Shown here in pieces: positions 46,982 to 56,988 of a stretch of 64,000 bases of DNA; the first letter of the stretch is position 1, and the number at the start of each line of letters is the position of its first letter. The stretch spans positions 2,790,001 through 2,854,000 of the forward strand of contig CP112982.1 in assembly GCA_041875495.1 (NCBI GenBank), given 5' to 3'. This DNA comes from Halomonas sp. CH40. GTDB lineage: Bacteria > Pseudomonadota > Gammaproteobacteria > Pseudomonadales > Halomonadaceae. The position numbers were made by a program, and so were the translations under genes. Below the pieces are notes generated by a model. The model did not search any database, was not told the DNA's origin, and was given only the letters and a program-made list of their open reading frames with translations.

Positions 46982-47404
46982 TATATTCTCCGTTAAATTC
47001 GCTAATGATGGTGCGCTTCAGAATGTTTAACTGTCAAGGAAGGGCTGGTTCGAGGTGCTTGTTCAAGATACCTGTTTGCCGTGTCCATCCAAGTCAGTTA
47101 ATTAACCCAACACTAAATTAGTTAATGAAATATCTATTTCTTATTCTCACGCCGCTGCGTGGAAATGCATACAAAATTAATATAATACAATTAGCCTTAG
47201 ATATAATACGTAAATTATACCTGTCTTTTAAATAGGTTCTGGACGGCAGCTATCAACCTCGGCACAGTAAGCAGGCTGACCAACCTGAAAAGGGTCGAGG
47301 CACCAACCAAAGCACGGGTCTGGCCGCATCGTCGATGCCAGGCAGTTATGTATTTTTGTCGAAACCCTATTAATAGAACTTCGGCCATTCTTTGAGGACT
47401 CATC
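46982..47404. other. AT-rich intergenic region with no clear gene
   Basis: This 423-bp gap lies between two divergent genes and is visibly richer in A and T than its surroundings around 47080-47220. It contains the 10-bp palindrome GTTAATTAAC (47097-47106) followed 20 bp on by a related TTAGTTAATGA. I find no convincing coding sequence or RNA gene. It must carry the promoters for the alcohol dehydrogenase (-) and the PAS-GGDEF-EAL gene (+); no strong sigma-70 pair was found by eye. Confidence 0.6.
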
Positions 47405-49180
47405 ATGGATGACTCAGCTATTGCATCTATTGATCAATTCCCAGTGGGCTGCCTGGTTTCAGACATTAATCGCCAGATTCACTACAGTAACCAGTATTTT
47501 GAAAAACGTTACGGCTATGCACACAATGAACTCCTTGGCTGCGACATTTTTGTTTTGCTCAGCAAGGCATCACAAATAATGTACGACAGCTTCATCATGC
47601 CAATGATTGTTTATGAAGGCTGCTGTGACGAAATACGGGTAACCTTGACAACAAAGGCCGGAAACCCAATTCCCGCCGTAGTTAGCGCTTATCGCGACCC
47701 GGAAAAAAATGAGCGGATTTTCTGGAGCATCGGTAGTGCCGCGCGCTCTGAACAACTGTTTCAGGAACTGAATGAAACCAAGGAGCTGCTTAGCAAGAAA
47801 GTCTCACTTTTGCGGTCATTATCGGAAACAGATCCGTTAACCGGCTTACCTAATCGCAGTGCCTTGACACAGCACCTGGATCACGAAATGACATATCGTG
47901 ATCCTGAAAAGCTGGCGTTTACGCTGGCCTTCATTGATCTTGATGGCTTCAAGGAAGTCAACGATACCTATGGTCATGATATGGGCGACGAAGTGCTGCG
48001 CTGCTCAGCCAACCGCCTGGTCAAAAACCTTAAGAAAGAGGATGTGGTGGCCCGATTTGGCGGCGATGAATTTGTTGTTTTTCTGGATACCCTGGATAAC
48101 GTTGCCTCGGCGAAAAAGGTTTTCAATCGCCTGATCAAAAAACTGTCTGAGCCGTTTGAAGTTGACTCAGTGACGATTCAAGTCTCTGCCAGCATTGGTA
48201 TTACGTTTTATCCTCAGGCGGAAAACGTCGATACCGGCCAGCTGCTGCGCCAGGCAGACCAGGCTATGTATCAGGCCAAGATTGCAGGGCGCAACCGGCT
48301 CAGCGTTTTCGACACAGCGACCGAACAGCATCAGAAATATACACTTAAAAGCCGCAACGTGGTTCAAACCGCGATGCTGAATAACCAGTTTGAACTTTAT
48401 TACCAACCCAAAGTTAATATGCGCACTGGCACCGTCCTCGGGGTTGAAGCACTTCTGCGCTGGAATCACCCCGATGAGGGAGTGAAGAGCCCGGCCACTT
48501 TTCTGCCTGCAATAAGCGGCACCACCACAGGGTTGAGCCTGGGCAGGTGGGTGCTCATTACGGCACTGACTCAGCTTCAGCAATGGCTCGATCAAGGACT
48601 GGACATGTCTGTCAGCATCAATATTGATGGCTATCATCTGCAGCATCCTGAATTTCTTAACGACCTGACCACAGCGCTATCCGGCTTCCCAGACCTCCCT
48701 CTCCAACGGCTTGAACTGGAAGTGATTGAAACCAGCGCCATTGAGGATATCAACCGCGTTGCAACGGTGGTTACCTCGTGCCGTAAAATCGGTATCCGGG
48801 TTTCTCTGGACGATTTTGGAACCGGCTATTCGACGTTAGGGCATCTGAGAGACCTGTCAGTCGATGTATTGAAAATTGATCGCAGCTTTGTCCAGAACAT
48901 GCTGGACAGCAGTGGCGACCTGGCCATTATCAAAGGCGTAGTCGGTTTTGCATCCGCTTTCGAATGCAGCCTGATCGCTGAAGGTGTTGAAACCTTACAG
49001 CATGCCCAGAGCCTAATGGAACTGGGCTGCGAAGGTGGTCAAGGCTTTTATATTGCGCGCCCCATGCCCGCCCATAAGCTTGGGAGCTGGGTAGAAAACT
49101 GGCAGCAACAAGGATTCACCCGACAATTTCACTACCTAAGCCCTAATATCCCAATACAGCTAGAGCACAGAACCAGATGA
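47405..49180 (+). CDS. PAS-GGDEF-EAL cyclic-di-GMP signalling protein with an RsbP-type PAS domain
   Basis: This 591-residue cytosolic protein joins a PAS sensor (about 8-112), a short coiled linker, a GGDEF diguanylate cyclase domain (about 140-305, intact RFGGDEF at 217-223) and an EAL phosphodiesterase domain (about 325-575). The EAL part keeps GVEALLRW, EVIET, LDDFGTGYS, KIDRSF, AEGVET and QGF, so both activities look possible. The GGDEF inhibitory site RxxD reads KxxD (210-213), so product inhibition may be weak. The PAS sequence resembles that of Bacillus RsbP (pattern FxxPM..YEGCCDEIRVTLTTKAG.PIP). It overlaps the RsbQ-like hydrolase by ATGA, which strongly suggests a working pair. GAGGA precedes ATG 47405. 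Confidence 0.93.
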   Translation: MDDSAIASIDQFPVGCLVSDINRQIHYSNQYFEKRYGYAHNELLGCDIFVLLSKASQIMYDSFIMPMIVYEGCCDEIRVTLTTKAGNPIPAVVSAYRDPEKNERIFWSIGSAARSEQLFQELNETKELLSKKVSLLRSLSETDPLTGLPNRSALTQHLDHEMTYRDPEKLAFTLAFIDLDGFKEVNDTYGHDMGDEVLRCSANRLVKNLKKEDVVARFGGDEFVVFLDTLDNVASAKKVFNRLIKKLSEPFEVDSVTIQVSASIGITFYPQAENVDTGQLLRQADQAMYQAKIAGRNRLSVFDTATEQHQKYTLKSRNVVQTAMLNNQFELYYQPKVNMRTGTVLGVEALLRWNHPDEGVKSPATFLPAISGTTTGLSLGRWVLITALTQLQQWLDQGLDMSVSINIDGYHLQHPEFLNDLTTALSGFPDLPLQRLELEVIETSAIEDINRVATVVTSCRKIGIRVSLDDFGTGYSTLGHLRDLSVDVLKIDRSFVQNMLDSSGDLAIIKGVVGFASAFECSLIAEGVETLQHAQSLMELGCEGGQGFYIARPMPAHKLGSWVENWQQQGFTRQFHYLSPNIPIQLEHRTR

Positions 49181-49995
49181 TACTGACGAAAGAAAAAGTC
49201 ATTGCCCGCAATAACATAGAAATTTTTGGCTCAGGAAATACGACCTTACTGATGGCCCATGGTTTTGGCTGCAACCAGACCATGTGGTATCGCCTGACGC
49301 CGGAATTGCAAAGCCGCTATACGCTTGTCCTATTCGATTATGTCGGCTCTGGCCAGTCCCAGTTGTCTGCCTACAGTGAAGCCCGCTACAGCTCGCTGGA
49401 AGGTTACGCTGCGGATATCAACGAGATCTGCACCACCCTTGACCTGACACAGGTTCATCTGGTTGGCCATTCGGTCAGCTGTACCATTGGCATGCTCGCG
49501 GCCAATAACGACCCGGAACGCTTTGCCAGCCAGATCATGGTGTGCCCATCGCCGTGCTTTTTGAACCTGCCACCTGATTACCATGGCGGTTTTGAGCGCT
49601 CAGACCTGGAAGAACTGGTTCAACTGATGGATCGTAACCATATGGGCTGGGCCAGCTATCTCGCCCCGCTGGTAATGGGCAGCGCCAGCCCGGACTTAAT
49701 GGTGGGTGAACTTTCCGACAGCTTCTGCTCAACGGACCCTCTGGTGGCCAAGACCTTTGCCCAGGCGACGTTCTTTTCTGACTATCGCCACCTGCTGCCC
49801 AACAACCAACACCCTACCCTGCTGCTGCAAAGCCAGGTTGATGCCCTTGCCAGTGAAAGCATTGGCCATTATATGCAGGCACATATGCCCAAGAGCACGC
49901 TTCATGTACTGCCCACCGAAGGCCATTGTATTCACATGACACACCCGGACCTGATCAGCCAGGAAATGATCACCTGGCTGGATAGGGCGGCTTGA
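49177..49995 (+). CDS. RsbQ-like alpha/beta hydrolase, probable ligand sensor paired with the PAS protein
   Basis: This 272-residue protein closely follows Bacillus subtilis RsbQ along its length: LLMAHGFGCNQTMW, LFDYVGSGQSQLSAY, RYSSLEGYAADI, GHSVS, MVCPSPCFLNLPPDYHGGFE, FCSTDPLVAKTFAQATFFSDYR and GHCIHMTHP. The catalytic triad is Ser99, Asp222 and His250. In Bacillus, RsbQ works with the PAS domain of RsbP to report energy stress, and its fold is that of the plant D14/KAI2 receptors. Here its partner is the overlapping PAS-GGDEF-EAL gene, so it should feed a c-di-GMP output. The ligand is unknown. It ends 263 bp before the rhodopsin gene. Confidence 0.92.
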   Translation: MILTKEKVIARNNIEIFGSGNTTLLMAHGFGCNQTMWYRLTPELQSRYTLVLFDYVGSGQSQLSAYSEARYSSLEGYAADINEICTTLDLTQVHLVGHSVSCTIGMLAANNDPERFASQIMVCPSPCFLNLPPDYHGGFERSDLEELVQLMDRNHMGWASYLAPLVMGSASPDLMVGELSDSFCSTDPLVAKTFAQATFFSDYRHLLPNNQHPTLLLQSQVDALASESIGHYMQAHMPKSTLHVLPTEGHCIHMTHPDLISQEMITWLDRAA

Positions 49996-50044
49996 ACGTT
50001 CACTAAGGACTGCATTCAAAAAAGCTAAATTAAAAAGCATTTAC

Positions 50045-50257: not shown

Positions 50258-51079
50258 ATGGAAATTGAAGCTTTATCCCTAGGGCAATATTCATTCGTAC
50301 AGAATGGCTATTCGTTCGGCTTTGCTGTCATGGCAGCTGCCACCCTGTTCTTCTGGTTGATGAAATCAGAAATCGCACCATCTTACCGCCTCGCCATTAC
50401 TATTACCGGTCTGGTAACCGCGGTAGCGGCCTATCACTACCTGCAGATCATGCTGTCGTGGAATGCCGCCGCTGACGTCACCACAGGTGAAGTACTGGCG
50501 ACCGGCAAGCCCTTTAACCAGGCTTACCGATATGTCGACTGGTTATTGACCGTACCACTTCTGCTCATTGAGCTGATTCTGGTCATGCGCCTATCCAAGG
50601 CAGAAACCATCAAGAAATCAACCGTTCTGGGTGGTGCTGCAGCATTGATGATCGTCCTGGGCTATCCGGGCGAAGTATCCAGCGTAGGCGGTCTGCGCTT
50701 TGTATTCTGGGTACTTTCCATGATCCCGTTCGTATTTATCGTGTACCAGCTGGTAGTGGGCCTGAAGGAGTCCATCTCCAAGCAGCCTGAAAGCGTCCAG
50801 AACCTTGTACAGATCTCTATTTACCTGGTCATCGGTTCCTGGTTGTTCTACCCGATCGTCTACCTCTTCCCGTTGGTAGGCCTGGACGGTGGCGCCGCCA
50901 TCACAGCTGTCGAAATCGGCTACACAGTGGCAGATATCGTGGCGAAAGCAGTCTTCGGTGTATTCATCTTCGTCATTGCGATGCGCAAGTCGCAGGCCGA
51001 AAGTGAAGAAGCCAACGGCGCGACTGCCACACTGGCAGACGATAACGCTGAAGGCGAAGAAACGTCGAAACTCTCGTAA
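50258..51079 (+). CDS. Proton-pumping rhodopsin, xanthorhodopsin-like clade
   Basis: This 273-residue seven-helix retinal protein starts at ATG 50258 with GGAGA 7 nt upstream. Helix C reads RYVDWLLTVPLLLIELIL: Arg91, Asp94 (Schiff-base acceptor), Thr98 and Glu105 (donor) form the DTE motif of outward proton pumps. Leu102, at the spectral tuning position, predicts green absorption. His60 pairs with Asp94, and Lys230 in YTVADIVAKAVFG binds retinal, with Asp226 as second counterion. The sequence is closer to Salinibacter xanthorhodopsin (ALMIVLGYPGEVS, LSMIPF) than to SAR86 proteorhodopsin. The residue that is Gly156 in xanthorhodopsin, needed for carotenoid antenna binding, is Trp151 here. The C-terminal tail is acidic. 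It heads the crtEIBY-blh cluster. Confidence 0.96.
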   Translation: MEIEALSLGQYSFVQNGYSFGFAVMAAATLFFWLMKSEIAPSYRLAITITGLVTAVAAYHYLQIMLSWNAAADVTTGEVLATGKPFNQAYRYVDWLLTVPLLLIELILVMRLSKAETIKKSTVLGGAAALMIVLGYPGEVSSVGGLRFVFWVLSMIPFVFIVYQLVVGLKESISKQPESVQNLVQISIYLVIGSWLFYPIVYLFPLVGLDGGAAITAVEIGYTVADIVAKAVFGVFIFVIAMRKSQAESEEANGATATLADDNAEGEETSKLS

Positions 51080-51113
51080 GCCTCGGCCTTTCATAACAGG
51101 AGTTTTACCGGCC

Positions 51114-52274
51114 ATGGATGGCCATGATCAAAAGGACGTTGGTATGGTCACTGCAACACTAAATCAAACTGCCATGTTCAATGTCACAGGTGCTGTCAGC
51201 ATCGATCAGCCATTGTCGGAGCACGCCGACGTTTCTGTTACCGACAGCATTGATGTCGACATTGATAGTGAACTTGTCCGCGTCGGGGAACTGATGCGCA
51301 GCAGTCTGAATGCACCTGTCAGCTGGCCTGCAACTGCCGCCAGCCTTTATCATCTGAATACCCAAGGTAGCCAATTACGTGCACGTCTGGCGCTCTTGAG
51401 CGGCATGGCGTTTGGCGCTTCAATCAGCCACCGCACCGCGGCTGCAGCTGCCGCAGAACTGATTCATAACGCTTCACTGGTTCACGATGACCTGTGCGAT
51501 GGTGATGCTCAGCGTCGTGGGCAAGCGTCCGTCTGGAAACGCTACAACCCCAATGTGGCGCTATGCACTGGAGATATGATGCTGACTGCGGCTTTTCGGG
51601 CTGCTCTGGCAAGTGACTCCTCTAAACACCAGTTAGCACTTGTACAACTATTAACTGACCGCACTAGTCAGGTGATTGCCGGGCAAAGCATTGAAATTGC
51701 CAACCCTACAACATTCACTGAGAAGTCTTCTGAAAGCACTCCTCAGTTTTCCAATAAGCATCAGAAAAAAGTCTGTTTGACCGACTACCTGCAGGCGACA
51801 TTAGCAAAGACAGCTCCCCTGATTGCTCTGCCCCTTGAGGCTGGCGCATTGGGCGGTAAGTTGACTAGCGGGGAACATGACCAGATCCGCTATTTTGCCA
51901 ATGCCGTCGGGCTGGCCTATCAGATTATTGATGACCTTGACGATGTCGATGTCACCCATCTGAGCGATTGCCAGCCAGATAACTTTCATGACTATCACGC
52001 CTGGCCGCAACACTGGCCGCCCGGTTCCACACACTCTGGTTCCACGCACTCTGGTTTCACATACCCTGGCGGCCCAATAGCAAGCACCATGCAACGCGCC
52101 GTGCGTCATGCCTCAGCGGCACTGTCACGCGCTGAAAGGCTGATTGAGCATTTCCCTGACCAGCTGGCAAGCGCCTTAGCCGCCATACTTGCCAAACTTC
52201 GCCAGCAGCTTGTGGAACATCGCCAGTCAATCGCGAGCCACCTTCATCATTACCCAGGGAAATCGGCCTCATGA
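51114..52274 (+). CDS. crtE: Geranylgeranyl diphosphate synthase CrtE, divergent
   Basis: CrtE condenses isoprenoid units to C20 GGPP, the first committed precursor here. The 386-residue product has both aspartate-rich motifs: DDLCD (125-129), followed by QRRG, and DDLDD (273-277). It is unusual: an N-terminal extension of about 55 residues, a charged insertion near 200-220, and a Ser/Thr/His/Pro-rich stretch (285-320) in place of the usual GK..G(x)D segment after the second motif. The start was placed at ATG 51114 (AGGAG 11 nt away); ATG 51144 with AAGGA 7 nt upstream is an equal alternative. It follows rhodopsin by 34 bp and overlaps crtI by ATGA. Confidence 0.9.
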   Translation: MDGHDQKDVGMVTATLNQTAMFNVTGAVSIDQPLSEHADVSVTDSIDVDIDSELVRVGELMRSSLNAPVSWPATAASLYHLNTQGSQLRARLALLSGMAFGASISHRTAAAAAAELIHNASLVHDDLCDGDAQRRGQASVWKRYNPNVALCTGDMMLTAAFRAALASDSSKHQLALVQLLTDRTSQVIAGQSIEIANPTTFTEKSSESTPQFSNKHQKKVCLTDYLQATLAKTAPLIALPLEAGALGGKLTSGEHDQIRYFANAVGLAYQIIDDLDDVDVTHLSDCQPDNFHDYHAWPQHWPPGSTHSGSTHSGFTYPGGPIASTMQRAVRHASAALSRAERLIEHFPDQLASALAAILAKLRQQLVEHRQSIASHLHHYPGKSAS

Positions 52275-53845
52275 ATACATCCGACGCCTTTGCAGCGCAC
52301 TCATCCGCCGACTCGGTCAGCCACACGAACAAGGCGGTTGTCATTGGTTCAGGCTTTGGCGGGCTGGCCATTGCTCTGCGTCTCTTGTCAGACGGCTGGA
52401 ATGTGGAGCTGCTGGAGCGTCATGGTGACCTTGGTGGCCGGGCCCGGGTATTCCATCTTGATGGGGTGGCTTTTGATGCCGGCCCCACCGTCATTACCGC
52501 CCCATTTCTCTTTGAAGAATTATTTGAGCGTTTTGGGGAAAAATTTGATCAACATGTAACGCTTTTGCCAGTCGAGCCTTTCTATCGGATGGATTATTCC
52601 GATGGCAGTTATTTTGATTATAAAAGCACTACCGATGAGATCATGGCTGAAATTGAGCGCCTGGCACCTGGCACCAGCAACCGCTATAACGACTTCTTGA
52701 CGGCCACAGAGAAGATGTATCAGCGCGGCTTTGTTGATCTGGCCGAGCAGCCGTTCACCAAGGTTACCGATATGCTCAAGGTGCTGCCGGATCTGGTGCG
52801 CCTGCGGGCAGATAAAAGTTTGTACACCTTTGTCTCGCGCTTTTTTGATGACGAACGCCTGAGGCGGGCGTTTTCCGTGCCTTCCCTGCTGGTTGGAGGA
52901 CATCCGTTTCGCACCTCTTCGCTGTATGGCTTGATCCATGCATTGGAACGCCGCGGTGGCGTCTGGTTTCCCAAAGGCGGTACAGGCGCCCTGGTCACGG
53001 CACTTGCCGAGCTTTTCCAGCGCCACGGCGGTGTTATCCGCACCCATCAGGAAGTGACTGCTCTGAGCGTTGAGGAAAACCGCGTGACCGGCGTTGAAGT
53101 CAGTGGCCGTCAACACTACCCGGCCGATATTGTGGTCAGCAATGCTGACCCTTTGCATGTCTATGAAAACTGGCTGCCCATGAAGCGCTGGGGCAAGCTC
53201 CTGAATGGTTTTCGGCGGCGCATGAAACAATCCATGGGGCTCTTGGTTGTGTACTTTGTCACCAAGCGCCGCTACACCGAGCTTGAGCACCACACCATCG
53301 TATTTGGCGACACCTTCAAGGAAATCCTCGATACCATTTTTGATGATTACGAAGTACCTGAAGATCTGAGCCTATATCTGCACAGGCCCAGCGCCACCGA
53401 CCCGGAGATGGCGCCGCCAGAGGGCGATGCCTTCTATGTTCTGGCGCCGGTGCCTAACCTTCAGGGCCGTCAGGACTGGGAGACACTCGAACCGCAGATG
53501 ACTCAGAATATCCTGTCGACCTTGCAGCAGCGCCTGATGCCGGATCTATTTGAACAGCTTGGCGCGACCCACACGGTGTCGCCGCGCTATTTCCACGACG
53601 CACTTTCCAGCCCGTTCGGCAGCGGCTTTTCCATCGCCCCGACGCTGACCCAGTCAGCGGGTTTTCGCTACCATAACCGCTCACCGCATTATCAGAACCT
53701 CTATTTTGTCGGCGCGGGCACTCACCCTGGCGCCGGGGTGCCTGGTGTGGTGTCGTCGGCCGGCGTGGTGGAAAAGCTGGTCAGGGAAGATCACGCCGTC
53801 AGCCGTGAACAACTCACTGCGGTTCAGGACAAGACTGCCGTATGA
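52271..53845 (+). CDS. crtI: Phytoene desaturase CrtI
   Basis: CrtI oxidises phytoene to lycopene in four steps using FAD. The 524-residue protein has the dinucleotide motif VVIGSGFGGLAIALRL (about 24-39), then LLERHGDLGGRARVFHLDGVAFDAGPTVI blocks, and the C-terminal FAD/carotenoid motif FVGAGTHPGAGVPGVVSSA near 480-498. These are the bacterial-type CrtI signatures. Start and stop overlap crtE and crtB by ATGA. The number of desaturation steps (three or four) cannot be read from sequence, but crtY downstream implies lycopene. Confidence 0.95.
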   Translation: MNTSDAFAAHSSADSVSHTNKAVVIGSGFGGLAIALRLLSDGWNVELLERHGDLGGRARVFHLDGVAFDAGPTVITAPFLFEELFERFGEKFDQHVTLLPVEPFYRMDYSDGSYFDYKSTTDEIMAEIERLAPGTSNRYNDFLTATEKMYQRGFVDLAEQPFTKVTDMLKVLPDLVRLRADKSLYTFVSRFFDDERLRRAFSVPSLLVGGHPFRTSSLYGLIHALERRGGVWFPKGGTGALVTALAELFQRHGGVIRTHQEVTALSVEENRVTGVEVSGRQHYPADIVVSNADPLHVYENWLPMKRWGKLLNGFRRRMKQSMGLLVVYFVTKRRYTELEHHTIVFGDTFKEILDTIFDDYEVPEDLSLYLHRPSATDPEMAPPEGDAFYVLAPVPNLQGRQDWETLEPQMTQNILSTLQQRLMPDLFEQLGATHTVSPRYFHDALSSPFGSGFSIAPTLTQSAGFRYHNRSPHYQNLYFVGAGTHPGAGVPGVVSSAGVVEKLVREDHAVSREQLTAVQDKTAV

Positions 53846-54921
53846 CCACAGCAGCCGCGACCTCCCAGGCCACCCTGCGCCAGCATGGGAAAAGCTTTCA
53901 CTGGGCAGGATTTTTTCTGCCCCGCGAGCAGCTACAGGATGGCGCGCGGCTGTATCACGTCTGCCGCCAGGTGGATGATATTGCCGATAATGCCGCAACC
54001 GATGCAGAGCGCCAGCGCGCTCTAAAAATGCTTACCTGCCTGCAATCCAGGCTAAATGCCCGACCGCAACCCCAGCTGACAGCCGCGGAAACCGGCACTA
54101 AGCCAAGCACCGAGTCCAGGCTGTCAAACAGCGAGCAACAACTTGTTAGTGCTCTCGAAGCCGATATTGTTGCGCTGTTTGCGCAGGATTCACGCTGCCT
54201 GCACGCCATGCAGGATCTGGTGGCCACCATGGTCATTGACCTCTCCCCCGTTCAGCTTGAGGATGAGCAGGCCCTGCTGGGCTATGCCTACGGCGCTGCG
54301 GGTACTGTCGGGGTGATGATGTGCCAGCTGATGGGCGCGCGTGAGCCGGATCACTCCCTGGCCTTTGCGATTGATCTGGGGGTGGCGATGCAGATGACCA
54401 ATATCGCTCGAGATGTGCTGGAAGATGCCCAACGCGGTCGGGTTTACCTGCCGCAAACTTGGCTGAAGCAGCCGATAACAGCTGACGCTATTGCCCATGG
54501 CGAACCACAGGCGCGCCACCAGGCCTGGCAAGCAGTTGGTCAGCTGATTGAACGGGCGGAAGCCTATTACACCAGCGGCTGGCAGGGGCTGGCGTATCTA
54601 CCCCCGCGTACCCGGCTAGCCATCGGCATTGCCCTGCGGGTGTATCGTCAGATCGGGCGGCGCATTCAAGGTTTAAGCGCAGAGGACTACTGGGCTCAGC
54701 GGGTGGTGGTGCCCAAAAGCCGCAAGCTGCAGCAAAGCCTGCTGGCGCTGCCAGCGCTGTTTAACACCTCAGCCGCCTGGCACGATGCGGCCTTGCATCA
54801 GCCGCTGGAAGCCCAACTGTCAGGCTATGCGCTGACTCCCAGAACCCTTGACAATACTGCTGCTCCCCAGCCAGAAGCTCATTCGCCTGGAAGGGAACAG
54901 CGCCATTCAGGGAAGGCATGA
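53842..54921 (+). CDS. crtB: Phytoene synthase CrtB
   Basis: CrtB joins two GGPP molecules head to head into phytoene. The 359-residue product has the first aspartate motif in CRQVDDIADN (45-49), YAYGAAGTVGVMMCQLMG, and the second motif NIARDVLEDAQRGRVYLPQTWL. Compared with typical CrtB it carries an insertion of about 25 residues near 70-95 (rich in Thr, Ser and Glu) and a C-terminal tail of low complexity. It overlaps crtI, and its stop falls 2 bp before the favoured crtY start. Confidence 0.94.
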   Translation: MTTAAATSQATLRQHGKSFHWAGFFLPREQLQDGARLYHVCRQVDDIADNAATDAERQRALKMLTCLQSRLNARPQPQLTAAETGTKPSTESRLSNSEQQLVSALEADIVALFAQDSRCLHAMQDLVATMVIDLSPVQLEDEQALLGYAYGAAGTVGVMMCQLMGAREPDHSLAFAIDLGVAMQMTNIARDVLEDAQRGRVYLPQTWLKQPITADAIAHGEPQARHQAWQAVGQLIERAEAYYTSGWQGLAYLPPRTRLAIGIALRVYRQIGRRIQGLSAEDYWAQRVVVPKSRKLQQSLLALPALFNTSAAWHDAALHQPLEAQLSGYALTPRTLDNTAAPQPEAHSPGREQRHSGKA

Positions 54922-54923
54922 CC

Positions 54924-56123
54924 ATGAGCCTGCCAAAGGAAACTGACATTGCCATTCTCGGCGCTGGACTGGCGGGGTTGAGTATTGCCAGCTGGCTGGA
55001 TGAGCTGGCACCCAAAAACGCAGTAATGCCACGCCTGCATCTGCTTGAAGCCCGCGAAGAAGATACTCACGACCGCACCTGGTGTTTCTGGGATCAAGCT
55101 CCTCACCCCTTTGGGGATGCCATCAGCCACCGCTGGCCAAACTGGCAGGTCAGCCATGCAGGTAAAAAGGTGGAATATAGCGATCCCGACCATCCTTACG
55201 CCATGCTACCCGCCGATGCCATGCGCCGCTCGGCCTACAACAGGATAGCAATACGCGATGAATTCTCGCTGGTGCGAGGCGTCAAGGTTAATGCCATCGC
55301 GCCGCAAAGTGAGTCACTGCGCATCACCACTTCCCAGGGCCAGCTCAACGCCAAGGTGGTGATTGATACTCGCCCGCCGCCATTGAACACGCTGGCAGAA
55401 TCACAGGGCGTCTGGCAGGTGTTCCACGGCGTGGAAGTTCATCAGCCCCACCACGGCCATGATCTGTCAAAAGTCTGCCTGATGGATTTTCAGGCCGGGC
55501 ACAGCGGCATCCATTTTGTCTATCTGCTTCCACTGGATGAGCACCACCTGCTGGTAGAGTGGACCTGCTTTGCGGCTGACAGACACAGTGAGGTATGCCA
55601 GACCCTGCTGGCGGCCGAGTTACCCTGGATGTTGGCAAGCTGGCTGGATGATCATCTCGGCAAGGGGTGGGTTGTACAGCGCAGCGAAACCGGCTGCCTG
55701 CCCATGATGCCGGTCACCCCTCCCAGCCTGAATTCACGCTATCTGTCTGCAGGGATTCGCGGCGGTTGGATGCGCCCGGCGACCGGCTATATGTTTGCCA
55801 GCTGCCAGCAGGGGGCCGCCGATGTGGCCAGACAGCTACTCAATGCGCATACTCACAACCGCTGGTATCTGACCCCACCACGCCTGCGCTCACCGGCGCT
55901 TGGCTGGATGGACAAGGTCTTTCTACAGGCAATTCGACAGCACCCGGACGCGGCTTCCGGCTGGTTTCTACGCCTGTTCGCCAACACCACGGCAGCTCAG
56001 CAGCGGCGTTTTCTGGGTGACCAGCCCAGCGCTGGCGACCTGCTGGCTATCATGCAGGCCTTGCCCCCTGGCCCCTTCATGCGCGCTGCATTGCCGCGTT
56101 TTTCAACATCAGGAGGGCACTGA
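54924..56123 (+). CDS. crtY: Lycopene beta-cyclase CrtY
   Basis: CrtY turns lycopene into beta-carotene by closing both ends. The 399-residue FAD-dependent protein has ILGAGLAGLSIASWL at the N terminus, the DRTWCFWDQ motif (about 45-54) typical of CrtY, and later YLLPLDEHHLLVEWTCF and GIRGGWMRPATGYMFA. ATG 54924 was chosen because AGGGAAGG (54909-54916) is at the right distance; an ATG at 54918 overlapping the crtB stop is a possible coupled start. No ketolase or hydroxylase gene follows, so beta-carotene should be the end product of the crt part. Confidence 0.93.
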   Translation: MSLPKETDIAILGAGLAGLSIASWLDELAPKNAVMPRLHLLEAREEDTHDRTWCFWDQAPHPFGDAISHRWPNWQVSHAGKKVEYSDPDHPYAMLPADAMRRSAYNRIAIRDEFSLVRGVKVNAIAPQSESLRITTSQGQLNAKVVIDTRPPPLNTLAESQGVWQVFHGVEVHQPHHGHDLSKVCLMDFQAGHSGIHFVYLLPLDEHHLLVEWTCFAADRHSEVCQTLLAAELPWMLASWLDDHLGKGWVVQRSETGCLPMMPVTPPSLNSRYLSAGIRGGWMRPATGYMFASCQQGAADVARQLLNAHTHNRWYLTPPRLRSPALGWMDKVFLQAIRQHPDAASGWFLRLFANTTAAQQRRFLGDQPSAGDLLAIMQALPPGPFMRAALPRFSTSGGH

Positions 56124-56124
56124 T

Positions 56125-56988
56125 ATGCAGGCGACTGACCGTCCACCCGCTTTCTGGCTGTTTCCCATTGGCTTGGTCGTTGCTCTGGGCGTTTCGGCAC
56201 TGCCCGGCGAATGGCCGCTGTATGCCATCCTTGCGATCAGTACCGCAGTGCTCGGCCTGCCCCATGGCAGCCTGGATACCGCTGTGGCCAAGCAGCATCT
56301 ACCGCTGAAAGGCCCCTTGCAGTTGGTCGGGTTCCATCTGGGGTATCTGGCACTGGGCGGAGTGGTGCTGGCGATCTGGTGGCAGGCGCCCAATGCGGCA
56401 TTGGCAGCTTTTCTGCTCTATTCAGCGGTACATTTTGCCGATGATATTGCCGTGCGGATTGGCCATATAGGCGGTACCGCCTATGGGCTTGGGGTGCTGT
56501 CACTTCCAGTCACCTTTCACCCTGAACAGGTGCAGCCGCTGTTTGAAATGCTCGGCGCTGATCAGGCCGCTCAGATTGTCGCAGTGGCGCCTTATACCCT
56601 GGCACTTGGCGGTGGGGTGTTAGCCATCTGCCTGGCGCTGCGCCCCCAGCGGGCAACCAGCGACTGGCGTGACCCCTTGCTGCTGGCAGCCGGAGCCGCC
56701 CTGCTTCACCCGCTGGCCTATTTCATTGCCTACTGGTGTTTTCTGCACAGCCCGCGCCACCTTGAGCTGGCCGCGCGAGATCTGGGCATCTACGGCTGGC
56801 GTGAGCGCCTCAAGGCGGTCGCGCCCATCACCCTGGCGACCTACGCCCTGGCTCTGGCCGCCCTACCGTTCCTGATGGAACTGCCCAGTGATGCCGCCCT
56901 GATGCGCATCGTTTTTATCGGGCTGGCCGCCTTGACGGTGCCCCACATGGTGTTGGAGCTGATTGCTAGCCCGCGTCGTGCGGGCTAG
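56125..56988 (+). CDS. blh: Beta-carotene 15,15'-dioxygenase, Brp/Blh family (retinal-forming)
   Basis: Blh cleaves beta-carotene into two molecules of retinal, the rhodopsin chromophore. The 287-residue integral membrane enzyme has the family histidines: His47 in GLPHGSLDT, His103 in SAVHFADD, His208 and His212 in FLHSPRHLEL, and His274 in VPHMVLEL. About seven hydrophobic segments are visible. ATG 56125 has AGGAGGG (56111-56117) 7 nt upstream. It follows crtY by 1 bp and ends the cluster. With the opsin gene present, this makes a complete light-driven proton pump cassette. Confidence 0.95.
   Translation: MQATDRPPAFWLFPIGLVVALGVSALPGEWPLYAILAISTAVLGLPHGSLDTAVAKQHLPLKGPLQLVGFHLGYLALGGVVLAIWWQAPNAALAAFLLYSAVHFADDIAVRIGHIGGTAYGLGVLSLPVTFHPEQVQPLFEMLGADQAAQIVAVAPYTLALGGGVLAICLALRPQRATSDWRDPLLLAAGAALLHPLAYFIAYWCFLHSPRHLELAARDLGIYGWRERLKAVAPITLATYALALAALPFLMELPSDAALMRIVFIGLAALTVPHMVLELIASPRRAG

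Follow-up and report, generated by a model that had tools for sequence, protein, structure and literature searches.

Does the adjacency of an RsbQ-like hydrolase gene and a PAS-GGDEF-EAL gene in Halomonas sp. CH40 reflect a sensing pair connected to cyclic di-GMP (c-di-GMP)? The two genes sit in the 3.67-Mb single-contig genome of this strain, within the 64,000-nucleotide stretch of DNA that was analyzed (the window, whose positions are used throughout). The output gene is referred to as P, the hydrolase gene as Q, and the features of the locus are as follows.

47405..49180, plus strand: output gene P, encoding a PAS-helical linker-GGDEF-EAL protein of 591 aa (ORF list, Pfam, AlphaFold2, alignment, Foldseek)
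47426..47791, plus strand: RsbP-type PAS domain, approximately residues 8-129 including the hinge (profile A2, E 1.9e-29)
47738..47824, plus strand: predicted PAS-GGDEF helix, residues 112-140, of low to moderate confidence (AlphaFold2 model)
47825..48298, plus strand: GGDEF domain, residues 141-298, with an intact motif and an I-site that reads KKED in place of RxxD (Pfam, alignment)
48359..49063, plus strand: EAL domain, residues 319-553, with no variation at the motif residues in 21/21 aligned rows (Pfam, alignment)
49177..49180, plus strand: ATGA stop/start overlap of P and Q, not conserved in the clade of related loci
49177..49995, plus strand: hydrolase gene Q, encoding an RsbQ-like alpha/beta hydrolase of 272 aa with the triad Ser99-Asp222-His250 (structure matches, alignment)
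47038..50019, no strand: pair-bearing segment missing at the equivalent site of genome G018, where 131 non-aligning bp occur (genome alignment)

Both open reading frames are present and overlap as the preliminary description had it, the start ATG of Q occupying 49177-49179 and the stop TGA of P 49178-49180, with the 4 bases ATGA shared. The order, output gene first and hydrolase second, is the opposite of that in Bacillus rsbQP. Elsewhere in the clade (20 loci) the stop codon of P is found about 5-182 bp upstream of the aligned hydrolase start (actual start codons may differ), and because the overlap is not conserved it was discarded as a sign of coupling. A promoter and terminator scan of the locus gave counts no different from the range of shuffles.

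A precedent for such a pairing was described by Nadezhdin, Brody and Price (2011, PMC3183031) as the RsbQ-PAS bipartite sensing module, of which 45 cases were reported with phosphatase, kinase (histidine kinase) or cyclase (diguanylate cyclase) outputs. Three cyclases of the 45 modules carried an additional EAL domain, and one Psychromonas held two copies of the module, both apparently acting on c-di-GMP; the wiring of RsbQ-PAS to c-di-GMP is an idea already proposed and tabulated there, GGDEF-EAL included. According to the same source, RsbQ binds the PAS domain of RsbP, the catalytic triad is required in Bacillus, and the substitution F55A in Bacillus RsbP abolishes signalling as well as disrupting the binding of RsbQ. 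As of 2011, no ligand had been found with RsbP-PAS and the target of the module was known only in Bacillus. The hydrolase was upstream in 45/45 cases, an order that the search had required and that is not counted here as defining. More recently, an AlphaFold model has placed RsbQ between the PAS domains and linkers of RsbP, and a coiled-coil-linker mechanism common to phosphatases, kinases and cyclases has been proposed (PMC12143880). A search of the open-access literature, mostly of titles and abstracts and with subscription journals largely outside it, found no experiment on an RsbQ-PAS module with a c-di-GMP output, and nothing after 2011 that settles the signal of the module or its target outside Bacillus. 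A c-di-GMP output offers a simple read-out for a module whose signal was unknown in 2011. The clade of the locus also appears to contain Halomonas sp. TD01, an engineered strain of laboratory and industry that serves elsewhere as a non-pathogenic chassis (PMC13297420).

Like the published module, the locus consists of an RsbQ-like hydrolase adjoining a gene with an N-terminal RsbP-type PAS domain and an exchangeable output, but the gene order is reversed, and PAS positions 10, 53 and 55 and the hinge Arg are unlike the usual. The PPM phosphatase output that characterizes the sigma-B energy-stress pathway (RsbQP proper) is not found, the partner of Bacillus RsbQ (1wom, 1wpr) being such a phosphatase whereas P is a GGDEF-EAL protein. 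The Psychromonas GGDEF-EAL protein described in detail there, A1SX34 (PMC3183031), has a second PAS in between, whereas P has a single PAS. DgcY of Halomonas hydrothermalis, a six-transmembrane cyclase (PMC12421958), was set aside as a different system.

Q has the alpha/beta hydrolase fold by Pfam and was modeled with a mean pLDDT of 94.0. The claim that it is RsbQ-like along its length with an intact triad was borne out: residues 7-262, nearly the whole protein, align with RsbQ 1wom (E 3.2e-77), and among 111 aligned hydrolases Ser99 and Asp222 are each found in 111 and His250 in 110. Its nearest solved structures are Olei00960 (3qvm) and RsbQ (1wom), with identities on the aligned model of 54% to 3qvm, 42% to 1wom (270 residues) and 40% to 1wpr. 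The next structural relatives, at 28-36% identity, are the KAI2 and D14 proteins, butenolide receptors of plants. The closest named match, among the best 80 of 572 loci, is from Vreelandella azerica (96% identity). RsbQ-like hydrolases also occur in 67 plasmid records, each at less than 60% identity.

The PAS domain of P is called by Pfam only below threshold (8e-05), and searching the PDB with its sequence and profile gave weak matches only. Profile A2 was built from 36 PAS domains adjoining RsbQ-like hydrolases in other bacteria, drawn from the 65 hydrolase-first PAS domains listed, with the source clade left out. Against the source genome it retrieved the PAS of P at E 1.9e-29 (103.7 bits), the runner-up among 14 matches standing at E 1.7e-3 (19.9 bits). 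A profile placing the domain outside the RsbP group had been named beforehand as the outcome that would speak against the preliminary description; the domain fell inside the group, and on this result P's PAS belongs to the RsbQ-PAS bipartite sensing module. Concordantly, this RsbP-type PAS is the most N-terminal domain of the partner, Q is a member of the RsbQ family with intact triad, the two genes are directly adjacent with a 4-base overlap, and the DIT motif is absent from the end of the PAS, as the module requires, the end reading FWSIGSAARSEQ. Nine distinctive PAS residues (C10, L13, L48, Q53, F55, C56, Y59, E72, P86) are here V, L, L, Q, M, Y, F, E and P, that is, 5/9 identical. PAS positions given here and below are inferred ones, since the B. 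subtilis RsbP numbering was transferred through the partner protein of Bacillus sp. BA3 (L165) and not from B. subtilis itself.

Alternatively, Q could be an ordinary metabolic esterase that merely shares an operon with a c-di-GMP enzyme, and solo RsbQ-like hydrolases do exist in relatives. In view of the pairing among named loci given below, this alternative is very improbable. In 117 related genomes the PAS was matched in 24 and the hydrolase in 34, with both in 22 as compared to 7.0 expected (24x34/117, kinship ignored), and the genes are adjacent in 22/22. Among the 12 remaining genomes with a hydrolase, a more distant PAS partner is adjacent in 6, and none was recognised in the other 6 (G002, G007, G025, G040, G069, G115). 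The tabulation of RsbQ homologues beside RsbP-type PAS domains that the preliminary description had proposed gave an adjacent partner in 71/80 named loci (the best 80 of 572) from several phyla, 65 hydrolase-first and 6 output-first. By profiles grown locally from six probes, with Pfam run on 10 neighbours, the outputs of these 71 loci among the best 80 of 572 are exchangeable, comprising GGDEF (31), GGDEF-EAL (7), kinase (19), kinase-receiver (8) and PPM (2), while 4 have a PAS without recognised output. No partner was recognised in 9/80 of the same best 80 of 572 loci (L110, L118, L119, L122, L123, L132, L136, L143, L164), of which L119 stops at its contig end.

The P-Q pair is the only unit common to all 21 loci of the clade. 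No third conserved gene was found in more than 9/21 of them, within about 9.5 kb or the available stretch. In this neighbour-family count the P family also took in nearby GGDEF proteins (9 of its members lie on the opposite strand). Q was assigned to its family in 20/21 loci; that of L057 was missed at the ORF step and found by a separate search. Hydrolase-PAS fusions were not found among 15 PAS-region proteins, all from close relatives. Two genomes with a PAS match only show natural decay of the pair: in G004 (L184) a full-length P is kept and Q is reduced to a stretch matching about 30 residues, while in G012 (L185) only a PAS fragment is left. The full-length P without Q in G004, together with the 6/34 genomes and 9/80 loci (best 80 of 572) without partner, counts against the reading of Q as the switch of P.

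The idea of a modular input pair predicts that the hydrolase should diverge with the PAS and not with the output, which is what was observed. Across 39 hydrolase-first GGDEF loci, the distance between two hydrolases tracks that between their PAS domains (r 0.80) and much less that between their GGDEF domains (r 0.23), in a test of loci retrieved by hydrolase similarity in which the species tree is not accounted for. The partial correlation of hydrolase and PAS given GGDEF is 0.79, a value reached by 0/2000 permutations, and that of hydrolase and GGDEF given PAS is -0.04. Five named loci duplicating whole-genome loci (L087, L089, L090, L091, L122) were excluded from the tree and distances. With the source clade added (60 loci) the values are 0.76 for hydrolase-PAS and 0.41 for hydrolase-GGDEF; within the clade by itself (21 loci) the two are equal at 0.843, which would be expected if the block has since moved together. 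That the hydrolase follows the PAS and ignores the GGDEF gives the idea of a swappable input cassette quantitative backing, argues further against the esterase alternative, and suggests that hydrolase and PAS were inherited separately from the output domains. Residue covariation between hydrolase and PAS (96 pairs) gave a top-10 mean of 0.358, above all 60 within-output-class shuffles, the highest of which gave 0.204. The top pairs were not accepted as contacts, because clade-separating positions (e.g. PAS W107, L118 and F119) seem to dominate them. Taken with the intact output motifs, these results support the assignment of Q and P as an RsbQ-PAS bipartite sensing module with a c-di-GMP-metabolising output; membership of the module, pairing and intact motifs are demonstrated here.

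The output domains were recovered by Pfam at 1.2e-48 (GGDEF) and 3.3e-67 (EAL), and the motif residues are present in the alignment, so that their description as intact holds, with the qualification that the I-site is altered: RxxD reads KKED (residues 210-213), Arg being replaced by Lys. Alignment A3 has 21 rows, 20 of them from the clade, with L044 excluded, as it nearly duplicates L043. None of the EAL motif residues varies in the 21 rows, while GGDEF is intact in 20/21 (the exception being GADEF in L052 of G056, whose named counterpart, L091, is Vreelandella aquamarina) and RxxD is intact in 16/20 clade rows and lost in 4/20. P is thus predicted, from its motif residues, to be a catalytically competent GGDEF-EAL enzyme. 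The invariance of EAL beside the variation of GGDEF and RxxD points to EAL as the protected activity, and we read P as mainly degrading c-di-GMP, possibly acting in both directions.

The AlphaFold2 model of P (mean pLDDT 82.7) comprises a PAS-like domain and the helix 112-140, then GGDEF and EAL, with block pLDDT values of 54-63 across residues 111-140. Its best Foldseek match as a whole is the PAS-GGDEF-EAL structure 5xge of PA0861 (E 4.9e-42, 27% identity), a Pseudomonas protein solved alone, with GTP and with c-di-GMP. The domain order of P is that of PA0861 and other PAS-GGDEF-EAL enzymes. PA0861, which we take to be the protein named RbdA, has input parts other than those of P, and to our knowledge has no RsbQ partner. 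Elsewhere in the source genome (G000), 33 places, the locus itself included, match residues 1-265 of P at E <=1e-3, indicating a large c-di-GMP network.

In the hydrolase tree (111 rows), the output-first GGDEF-EAL loci group together as a single clade with 21 members (support 98/87), made up of 20 genomes of the source genus and L088, a MAG labelled Marinobacter. The next relatives are the solo hydrolases L058 and L059, followed with weak support by L060, a hydrolase-first GGDEF-EAL locus; L060 and the clade are placed among gammaproteobacterial hydrolase-first GGDEF loci. Since the output-first loci form a single clade within hydrolase-first ones, the order was probably reversed once. This applies to this clade only: L160, from Planktothrix paucivesiculata, is also output-first, its hydrolase being preceded by a PAS protein of 353 aa in which the probe profiles recognised no output domain, and in L062 (G115) a stretch of 68 residues that matches the end of P at 51% identity stops where the hydrolase gene starts, perhaps a remnant of another output-first pair. 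No report of the reversed order was found in the open-access literature, searched mostly by titles and abstracts.

The clade also differs from hydrolase-first partners at the PAS face and hinge. Position 55 is M, I, L or V in 21/21 clade rows and F in 61/74 hydrolase-first partners; at position 10 the clade has V, I or M in 21/21 and the partners have C in 50/74; position 53 is Q in 20/21 and R in 1/21. At the PAS-linker hinge Arg occurs in 67/68 hydrolase-first rows (the divergent rows L068-L073 being omitted, hence 68 rows compared to 74 for position 55), while 21/21 clade rows have Ser or Thr; in A3 the residue just before it is Arg in the 20 clade rows. Given that position 55 is never Phe and position 10 never Cys, the contact between Q and the PAS may differ or be lost. 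The clade might accordingly have drifted from the classic contact, the genes staying together while another face or the hinge signals, or while one partner alone matters. Besides the substitutions, P kept without Q in G004 favors such drift; yet the clade retains L or F at position 48, P62, E72, P86 and an aromatic at 59 (the last four fixed in 21/21), and Q and P are adjacent in all 20 clade genomes keeping both, which leaves it doubtful. A further, equally tentative proposal is that the order reversal, the rebuilt PAS face (10, 53, 55) and the hinge Arg shift mark a separately evolved RsbQ-PAS switch in which hydrolase and PAS would touch, and move the helix leading into GGDEF-EAL, in a different geometry, perhaps with inverted sign, so that ligand lowers c-di-GMP instead of raising it. 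The altered interface signature of the clade is worth testing.

On balance it is somewhat probable that Q switches the activity of P through the PAS. For the clade we infer control of c-di-GMP, a ligand, a direction, a dimer and the existence of the contact. Under this scheme a small molecule would enter the Ser-His-Asp pocket of Q, and the occupied or turning-over hydrolase would then dock on a putative P dimer, at the F-alpha face of its PAS domains. Docking may alter the geometry of the PAS-GGDEF helix (112-140) and so switch the GGDEF-EAL part, the net effect probably falling on EAL breakdown of c-di-GMP with the GGDEF as a GTP-binding modulator or cyclase. Nadezhdin et al. offered, as their Model 1, that the product of the hydrolase is instead handed to the PAS cavity, the PAS being the true sensor and catalysis the signal. 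The triad is conserved in nearly all 111 hydrolases and is needed for signalling in Bacillus (PMC3183031), but as of 2011 no ligand of RsbP-PAS had been found, and the present data do not separate catalysis from occupancy signalling; we regard Model 1 as possible though rather unlikely. The alternatives overlap with switching of P by Q through the PAS, and their likelihoods need not total one.

The signal might also be sought in the neighbourhood. Because the receptors for plant hormones derived from carotenoids (KAI2 and D14) are similar to RsbQ, the rhodopsin neighbourhood was tested for meaning. A rhodopsin gene starts 262 bp downstream of the pair and is followed by Pfam matches of crtE, crtI, crtB, crtY and beta-carotene 15,15'-dioxygenase (Blh) type; together these genes occupy 50258-56988, all on the plus strand, and look like a full retinal-rhodopsin cluster. 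This proximity and the structural kinship of Q to KAI2/D14 could suggest that what the module senses is a breakdown product of carotenoids or retinal. The plant receptors partner with F-box proteins, not PAS proteins. However, rhodopsin occurs in 12/117 genomes and beside the pair in only 2, the source and its sister G016, while the pair stands without any rhodopsin match (at E 1e-15) in the 18 other clade genomes. In G018, the adh-rhodopsin site is the same and the pair is missing: valS, adh, rhodopsin and crt genes stand in matching order, with 131 non-aligning bp where the pair would be (the flanks align up to 47037 and again from 50020). The link was rejected as lineage-specific, carotenoid sensing is regarded as highly improbable, and an accidental insertion or loss at this site is the best reading of the adjacency.

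Other arrangements of RsbQ-like hydrolases were observed among the relatives. The solo hydrolases L058 and L059 (G040, G069), in whose genomes the own-locus PAS query was unmatched at E 1e-5, are candidates for an independent enzyme role. A second, divergent cassette occurs in the same genus at L068, L069, L070 and L072 (G037, G001, G051, G014), with a hydrolase 37-39% identical, then a PAS-GGDEF protein of 329-344 aa and, in 3/4, a GGDEF-EAL-like protein of about 1060 aa; G001 holds both cassettes. In L065 (G025) and L122 (Halomonas salicampi) the hydrolase is followed by a 162-aa protein, without Pfam match in L065, that is possibly another type of partner, and in L065 a 382-aa GGDEF protein with no PAS match also lies downstream.
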